Positions 19,501 to 20,608 of a DNA stretch of 64,000 nucleotides are shown one piece after another (the first letter of the stretch is position 1; each line of letters opens with the position of its first letter). The stretch is from Temnopleurus reevesii. Taxonomy: Eukaryota; Echinodermata; Echinoidea; Temnopleuroida; Temnopleuridae. The stretch is taken from positions 15,863 to 79,862 of the forward strand of contig BQKZ01000530.1 in NCBI GenBank assembly GCA_036244855.1, read 5' to 3'. Below the pieces are notes generated by a model. The model saw only the letters and a program-made list of their open reading frames with translations. It made no database searches and had not been told where the DNA came from. The translations under genes were made by a program, and so were the position numbers.

Positions 19501-20608
19501 TTGCCAAAATTAATCAAACGGTCATAAAAAATAACATGTTTATCATAGGTGTAACTTTGCTCATTGTAATCAAAGAAAGTTGACCAGATGCCTCAAGATG
19601 TGAAAACGCAATACGCCTAGCCTTCATTAGATCATTGAGTGTATAGATCTAGTTGTTAATGACATTATGATTAATATTGTTAACACAGCTTTATAAATTC
19701 ATACGTGTATATGAATAATATTGCTCTGATATATTTTCCTTCAGAGACCCCAGCAAGCCGAGTCCGGATGAAGAACCAGGAGTAGGAGAGGACTCATGGC
19801 CAATGTACACGATCCCTGAACTCAAACATAAGGAACTTTCTTTAGAGTTAGGCGAAGGCAGAGCGGTGTTAGCAGGACAGTGTCATTTCTGGAACCAATA
19901 TATACCCAGCCTGGAGGCATTTACAAGTAAGACAATACAAGTTTAAATTAATAAGTACATTAATGAATGAGGGATAATTTAGATTATAATATTTTCCTTC
20001 ATTATGCCTCTTAATTTAAAGACTTGGCTAGGCCGGGGGTAGGTTATGAAAGTGGGCGATCTAAGTACTTGCTATGCCCCTGCTCTGGTAAAAACAAGTC
20101 ATTGTTTAATTTAAACAAAAAGATGATTAAAGTCTGTATTACATACTCTAGACATAATGCCATTTTGTTGGATAACATGACAATTGTATTTTGATGGTAT
20201 TGTTCATAGTGGATATGAAGTATTTACATGAATTGTTATGATGGTACGAAAATAATAACATACACGTCATTCCAAATAATTAAAAAGTTTGATTAAGCGT
20301 TTACATATTTAAGAAAAAATAGTAAATATCTAAAGGCGCTCTAGTTTATATTCTAGTCCATATATGAAAATATTTTTTCAACTATTTTACATAAAATAAA
20401 ATAGAATTGAAATGATTGTCAGTTATCACATAGTAAATTAAGCAATCAAATTGAAGATTTGTGAAATAAAATGATGATATCCTTTCAATTAGATACAATT
20501 GATGATGACGAGAAGGAATGGCGTGAGAGCTACGATGACTGGAAAGATGACTTGACCGAGTGGCAGCAAGCTTTTGAAGAGTACAAACAACAACCAACAT
20601 GCAGTTAA
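13546..20608 (+). CDS. Gene B: secreted cholinesterase-like carboxylesterase with T-peptide tail, complete
   Basis: Serine esterase of the cholinesterase family, predicted to be secreted. Exons: 13546-13707, 15137-15313, 16006-16165, 16875-16952, 17354-17472, 17827-18000, 18211-18653, 19171-19365, 19745-19926, 20493-20608; all introns GT-AG, total 601 codons plus stop. The start gives a hydrophobic signal peptide (about residues 1-20). Seen: HGGGF oxyanion loop (His124-Gly127), Ser207 in GESAGS, Glu331 in NRDEG, His457 in GAGHAEE. Cysteines fit the acetylcholinesterase disulfides: 87-102, the pair in MGCEDV and VECLRD, and the pair in DFACPSD and QCHFWNQ. The last exon encodes residues 565-601 with Trp573, Trp580, Trp587, Tyr594 and Cys600, as in a T-peptide. 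Only 14 residues lie between Cys87 and Cys102, with no Trp, so choline binding is unlikely and the substrate is unknown. AATAAA at 20803 may be the poly(A) signal. Confidence 0.93.
15465..15597. mobile_element. Possible second copy of the 3700-3842 insertion family
   Basis: In intron 2 of gene B the stretch from about 15510 to 15594 resembles the insert in gene A intron 4 (CTTACAATGAATAACAATTG core, GATGTTACAGG end). Identity is moderate by eye and the borders are uncertain. Confidence 0.4.
19051..19134 (-). mobile_element. Mini-MITE of about 80 bp in gene B intron 7
   Basis: Ends in CCATTGACTA and CAGTAGTCAGTGGGTT, an imperfect terminal inverted repeat. The interior GACTTTGTGCATGGACGAC followed by TTGGTTCCAGTAGTCA recurs in reverse orientation at 57231-57303 in gene E. 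Confidence 0.65.

Follow-up and report, generated by a model that had tools for sequence, protein, structure and literature searches.

A T-type tail exon on tandem esterase genes that probably no longer encode cholinesterases in the sea urchin Temnopleurus reevesii

Background

The T (or WAT) tail is the assembly tail of acetylcholinesterase (AChE) and butyrylcholinesterase (BChE). In vertebrates, the T peptide of AChE is encoded by a separate last exon, which is entered in phase 1. In cholinesterase tetramers the T helices are arranged around a proline-rich peptide, and BChE is able to use peptides from many proteins, as stated in PMC8518539. PMC3045457 cites the suggestion that the C-terminal splice sites of AChE are conserved in insects, nematodes and vertebrates, together with exon shuffling, and points out that tail and core of AChE may evolve independently. 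For echinoderm esterases, no title or abstract dealing with T tails was among those listed from the open-licence PMC literature.

Here we describe a tail exon of this type in a tandem cluster of esterase genes of Temnopleurus reevesii. The window, i.e. the whole stretch of DNA that was analysed, comprises 64,000 nt of contig C530 of the 558-Mb genome.

Results and Discussion

The esterase cluster

By tblastn, contig C530 contains the genes A0, A, B, C, D, E, F and a partial G, plus a gene H on the minus strand. The features located within the window are compiled in Table 1. The product of gene B starts with a signal-peptide-like stretch. Exon 9 of this gene (19745-19926, donor GTAAGA) is spliced in phase 1 to exon 10, which is 116 nt long, follows an AATTAG acceptor and encodes a split Asn plus 37 residues, ending with TCS and the stop codon. 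The residues W573, W580, W587, Y594 and C600, with their seven-residue spacing and the Cys close to the C-terminus, had been named in the initial annotation and were exact on recount. A last exon of its own with phase-1 entry is found in A, B, C and D alike.

Table 1. Coordinates of esterase genes and tail exons within the window
Feature	Position	Strand	Remarks
Gene A, exons 4-10	3097..9741	+	exon 7 with in-frame TAA
Gene A, exon 10, T-type tail	9626..9741	+	116 nt, phase 1; AChE_tetra 21.0 bits
Gene B, complete 10-exon carboxylesterase	13546..20608	+	601 aa, GT-AG introns
Gene B, exon 10, T-type (WAT-like) tail including the stop codon	20493..20608	+	phase 1
Gene C, complete 10-exon esterase with GESAG	26256..33802	+	
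Gene C, last exon, degenerate tail	33637..33802	+	no AChE_tetra match
Gene D, 11 exons	37215..48036	+	one intron more than B (45306-45718)
Gene D, last exon, T-type tail	47921..48036	+	116 nt, phase 1; AChE_tetra 22.3 bits
Gene E, exons 1-7	54143..61151	+	
Second copy of gene E exons 6-7	62327..63470	+	near-identical, ~2.4 kb downstream

It had also been claimed that A and D possess the same tail exon as B, and length and phase do agree in each of them. Both genes are broken copies in this assembly, a point which the initial annotation had passed over, as it had the degenerate last exon of gene C. In exon 2 of gene D, an in-frame TGA stands where B and C share a Cys codon, and the catalytic Ser of the gene is lost (GERAG versus GESAG). 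Selenocysteine was considered for this TGA, but none of the SECIS families scored up to its gathering threshold within the window, and gene D is therefore read as a broken copy. The only match in this SECIS/Rfam scan of the window was a tRNA at 21576-21647 on the minus strand (RF00005, 34.4 bits). For gene A, exons 1-2 have their matches before the start of the window, and tblastn of the contig gave no match to exon 3. Exons 4 and 9 of this gene are duplicated (529-606 and 7526-7716) and there are single Ns at 2293 and 7721 in its region; because of these, its damage may in part be an assembly fault or the result of joined haplotypes. The stretch 1632-2263 consists of tandem copies of a GGGTCGCTATTCATAA-like unit and, behind them, its reverse complement, and ends near a single N. 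The degenerate tail of gene C resembles those of the urchin relatives P0029 and P0030. Since A and D carry in-frame stops and the tail of C is degenerate, gene B is the sole intact canonical case within the window. The T exon of gene E is located at C530:81379-81480, about 1.5 kb past the window end, and scores above the Pfam cut-off.

The stops in A and D and the degenerate tail in C could suggest that the exon is a neutral relic on decaying genes. This is very improbable, as the tails of A and B point to strong constraint and intact tails occur in relatives named as sea urchins, sea cucumbers, sea stars, brittle stars and feather stars, that is, judged by sequence, in all five echinoderm classes. 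Between A and B, differences were counted at 12.0 of 15.3 synonymous versus 14.0 of 95.7 non-synonymous sites, gene A itself being a copy with a stop. As a far larger share of the synonymous sites differ, the count indicates that the tail peptide was under constraint. It was made between A and B; the tails of E and F were out of register when set against A0, A, B and D, and these pairs were left out. In the genome as a whole, the tail of gene B matches at least 24 places at E<=10, at least 16 of them at E<=1.5e-4. Two of these, C8941 and C9154, have equal scores and may be alleles.

The tail exon

Aligned without gaps to the vertebrate T peptide, the tail of gene B reaches BLOSUM62 scores of 81 (eel) and 83 (human), with 10 identities in 36 positions. 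None of 200,000 shuffles scored as high, the maxima being 44 and 57 in the eel and human comparisons, respectively, and the pattern W-7-W-7-W-7-aromatic turned up in 35 of 200,000 shuffled versions of the gene B tail. Among solved structures, 1VZJ, an AChE peptide of 40 residues, comes closest (ungapped, E 1.1e-4), and the full protein of gene B can be aligned to AChE chains into the tail (6euc 46-600; 2x8b 50-601). A protein search with the tail only gave just three candidates. At the heptad a/e positions of the tail there is an aromatic stripe W, Y, W, L, W, F, Y, which reads WWWY / YLF compared to WWWY / FMF in the T helix of eel and human. Thus the vertebrate AChE/BChE T (WAT) peptide, as represented by Pfam PF08674 (AChE_tetra) and 1VZJ, and the tail of gene B have in common the W-7-W-7-W-7-Y helix and the C-terminal Cys and align without any gap. 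In contrast to the vertebrate peptide, the tail of gene B is joined to a core without Trp86, remains below the Pfam cut-off and is far more acidic (net charge -9 versus -1 in the human T peptide).

The curated cut-off of AChE_tetra is 25 bits, and gene B scores 13.8 bits as a full protein and 19.9 bits with the tail alone. When the seven other tails of contig C530 (A0, A, C, D, E, F and H) were scanned, E, F and H passed with 36.1, 33.3 and 30.4 bits, A and D (Table 1) and A0 (17.5 bits) stayed below and the tail of C gave no match. The profile search that had been proposed as a check is thus negative for B, A and D taken alone and positive for E, F and H on the same contig. By profile alone the T-family assignment is borderline for B, and for the cluster it is safe as far as the sequences tell. 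At E<=0.01 the profile was found in 30 of 61 aligned homologues and in 23 of 26 selected tails; across the genome it matched at least four places at E<=0.001, those listed being confined to C530 and C4109. The match to 1VZJ, the ungapped alignment and the Pfam passes of the cluster genes support the earlier claim of a T-type tail and argue that exon 10 of gene B truly belongs to the AChE T (WAT) tail-exon family.

The catalytic core

The protein of gene B matches Pfam COesterase (PF00135) with 421.6 bits (cut-off 27) and keeps the Ser-Glu-His triad (S207, E331, H457). The loop which bears Trp86 in AChE (Cys69-Cys96) has 16 residues in B versus 28, and the Trp is absent. No Trp is present at this column in B, C and all of 88 aligned relatives, which are echinoderm, hemichordate and metagenome rows; 85 of them have a gap there and three another residue. 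A Trp elsewhere in the loop occurs in five of 90 rows (B and C included). The triad is widely kept among the 88 relatives (Ser in 85, Glu in 79 with Asp in a further 7, His in 85). Furthermore, neither the aromatics of the peripheral site nor the Phe pair of the acyl pocket is present in gene B. The absence of Trp86 from B and its 88 relatives bears out the claim of a core without the choline site. In a tree of 126 cores, eel AChE falls outside a 111-row clade of echinoderm and hemichordate esterases (SH-aLRT 100). The esterases of the cluster are, by these residues, probably no longer cholinesterases. With the tail located on cores without the acetylcholine pocket, an assembly tail was therefore apparently retained by probable non-cholinesterases.

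A predicted model of the urchin homologue P0003 has a mean pLDDT of 93.9 and its best structural matches are AChE, BChE and the vertebrate carboxylesterases (CES); a single tail helix is predicted at 569-596, with pLDDT of about 78-83. CES and the hemichordate 'acetylcholinesterase-like' esterases resemble gene B in their COesterase core with Ser-Glu-His, and those hemichordate proteins which are in the alignment also lack Trp86, but neither group has the W-heptad tail of B. The hemichordate proteins P0100, P0102 and P0151 end with HNEL, HEEL and KDEL, respectively.

Distribution and spacing of the tail

The nearest proteins among the listed matches are sea urchin 'cholinesterase 1' entries with 72-74% identity. 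Echinoderm entries named 'cholinesterase 1' or 'acetylcholinesterase-like' (P0001-P0003 and others) show 72-74% identity to B over the full length and have the same tail; they bear cholinesterase names although they lack Trp86. A precomputed PF08674 label is present in five among the best 120 of 6438 homologues. In the same best 120 of 6438 the tail spacing is 7-7-7 in 43 and 7-8-7 in 26, and 51 show neither, the last group including fragments, non-echinoderms and other tails. A second search, with an urchin paralogue as the query, brought in a further 94 proteins; among those from echinoderms, many have 7-8-7 tails. In the 43 homologues picked for 7-7-7, the e positions, which were outside the selection, are hydrophobic in fractions of 1.00, 0.93 and 1.00. 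A Cys follows in 43 of 43 members of this set and in 11 of the 26 tails with 7-8-7. The latter spacing is found in asteroid, crinoid and ophiuroid relatives and in some urchin paralogues, and for a crinoid 7-8-7 protein the model predicts one continuous tail helix (568-599).

A first tree was calculated from B, C, eel AChE, the homologues with lengths of 540-660 residues and seven others that were longer or outlying. For the second tree, the one of 126 cores, P0119, P0109, P0106, P0085, P0094, P0067 and P0074 were removed as long or outlying branches and 35 of the 94 newly found proteins, picked by hand, were added. One of the dropped rows, P0094, has a 7-7-7 tail and had grouped with sea cucumber rows in the first tree (support 87). 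In the second tree all T tails except that of eel AChE belong to one 96-row clade (SH-aLRT 98). One main branch of this clade (21 rows, support 81) has only 7-8-7 or other tails. The other one (75 rows) contains sea stars, brittle stars and feather stars with 7-8-7 and also the 7-7-7 rows, namely all seven of those labelled sea cucumber or left unnamed and 33 out of the 39 that form an urchin group. These two 7-7-7 groups are apart in the free tree. When their 46 rows were constrained together, the log-likelihood was 8.94 higher (p-AU 0.661), in quick tree searches and with a group defined after inspection of the tree. Given this distribution and the constraint test, the simplest account is a single loss of one residue, by which 7-7-7 probably arose later from a 7-8-7 ancestor in the lineage of urchins and sea cucumbers. 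An unchanged inheritance of the vertebrate-like 7-7-7 spacing, as implied by the initial annotation, is not what the tree suggests; the spacing looks derived here, with 7-8-7 in asteroids, crinoids and ophiuroids, in some urchin paralogues and in a probable true-AChE tail exon on contig C5778 of this genome.

Some relatives have other C-terminal ends. In four proteins of Amphiura filiformis (P0049, P0138, P0140, P0141) a 7-8-7 T-like tail is followed by a terminal RDEL or RNEL, which we take to resemble ER-retention signals. Two proteins of Patiria miniata (P0057, P0059), close relatives of T-tailed asteroid esterases, have a hydrophobic, apparently transmembrane end in place of the T tail.

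Age of the tail exon

Trp86 is kept in two genes elsewhere in the genome, C926 and C1488. These are nearest to each other by path and next to human and eel AChE, with a tree support of only 41 for their grouping with vertebrate AChE. The best genome match of the eel T peptide is located at C5778:3732-3833 (27% identity). This tail exon (DIRETERKWKEEFNQWYTKHMVNWKAEFAHYINNKNAEC...) has phase 1 and 7-8-7 spacing and reaches 27.3 bits with AChE_tetra, above the cut-off, although the genome-wide Pfam search did not list it. A last core exon (C5778:2105-2260) precedes it by 1.5 kb, scores 53.9 bits versus a hemichordate AChE-like protein and 53.5 versus an urchin esterase, and begins in a way that is compatible with the reading phase in which the C926 exon ends. 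The C5778 exon is, by sequence features, probably the tail of a true AChE. Within 86.7 kb downstream of C1488 neither a last core exon of the Cys-x-Phe-Trp type nor a T heptad was found, and C926 ends 1.2 kb after its big exon; because of this, the C5778 exons have no certain assignment to either of them. C926, C1488 and the C5778 exon belong to the same fold family as gene B, and the C5778 tail shares phase 1 and the offset of its first Trp. They differ from B in the Trp86 of C926 and C1488 and the 7-8-7 spacing of the C5778 tail.

In A, B, D, H and the C5778 exon alike, the intron lies nine residues before the first Trp. Nine residues also precede the first Trp in the eel and human peptides, counted from the corresponding residue, which we take to be the exon boundary there. 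That the separate tail exon predates the vertebrate gene, as had been claimed, is likely from phase 1 and the nine-residue offset in the esterase genes and in the C5778 exon. The same observations bear on convergence, that is, on an amphipathic helix of independent origin without relation to the AChE T exon. The low identity to the eel peptide (for gene B and the C5778 exon alike) and the seemingly separate rise of 7-7-7 in this family would fit such an origin, but place, phase and offset after a homologous last core exon are the same, three cluster genes pass the Pfam cut-off, and the C5778 exon, the best urchin match of the eel T peptide, is itself 7-8-7. Convergence is therefore highly unlikely.

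Assembly

The explanation which we favour, and consider fairly likely, is that a T-family exon is attached to tandem esterases which are not cholinesterases and that its helices most likely tetramerise, probably around a proline-rich peptide. Exon 10 would form one amphipathic helix with an aromatic stripe matching the vertebrate T helix. Four of these tail helices would most likely pack together, the bundle probably enclosing a proline-rich peptide, and a disulfide of the C-terminal Cys would lock the tetramer of a non-cholinesterase esterase. For gene B, an assembly like that of cholinesterase tetramers can be expected with reasonable, though not high, confidence. Its secretion, its tetrameric state, a proline-rich partner and its substrate are predictions of this kind.

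Several findings count against this explanation. B, A, D and A0 do not reach the Pfam cut-off and C lacks any match, the tail of B is acidic, 51 of the best 120 homologues have neither spacing, apparent membrane anchors are present in P0057 and P0059, and the Cys is found in 11 of 26 tails with 7-8-7 only. A candidate anchor was sought with the proline-rich family PF16101 (PRIMA1), which gave three genome matches, all below the cut-off and in low-complexity stretches of His, Pro, Ser and Ile; this search ran exon by exon, and one of 14 control genomes also gave a signal. Since BChE, according to PMC8518539, can use peptides of many proteins, the lack of a PRIMA1 match above the cut-off is weak evidence against an anchor.

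Alternatively, the tail could be a genuine T homologue which no longer binds a proline-rich anchor and serves, through helices and disulfides, in homodimers or homotetramers, or else in ER quality control. The lack of PRIMA1 matches above the cut-off in the exon-by-exon search, the four Amphiura relatives with RDEL or RNEL behind a 7-8-7 tail and the strongly acidic tail of gene B are in line with this. Against it, both the a/e stripe and the Cys have been retained across 43 tails with 7-7-7, a set itself chosen by its a-position pattern, and the anchor search covered single exons and the PRIMA1 family. We regard an assembly without anchor as rather unlikely.

Conclusion

We tentatively suggest, as a possibility that may well prove wrong, that the WAT tail of echinoderms became uncoupled from acetylcholine hydrolysis and turned into a common C-terminus of a large esterase family, with its register reset once, from 7-8-7 to 7-7-7, in the lineage of urchins and sea cucumbers, so that the vertebrate spacing was reached separately. 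If this is true, WAT helices would be a general tetramer core of secreted enzymes and not a device for synaptic anchoring, and the two registers would imply two superhelix geometries or partners. The occurrence of many T tails on enzymes without the usual choline site, beside two Trp86-bearing genes elsewhere in the genome, separates assembly from catalysis. The natural variants, 7-7-7, 7-8-7 and degenerate, may be used to test what is needed in terms of helix register and proline-rich partner.
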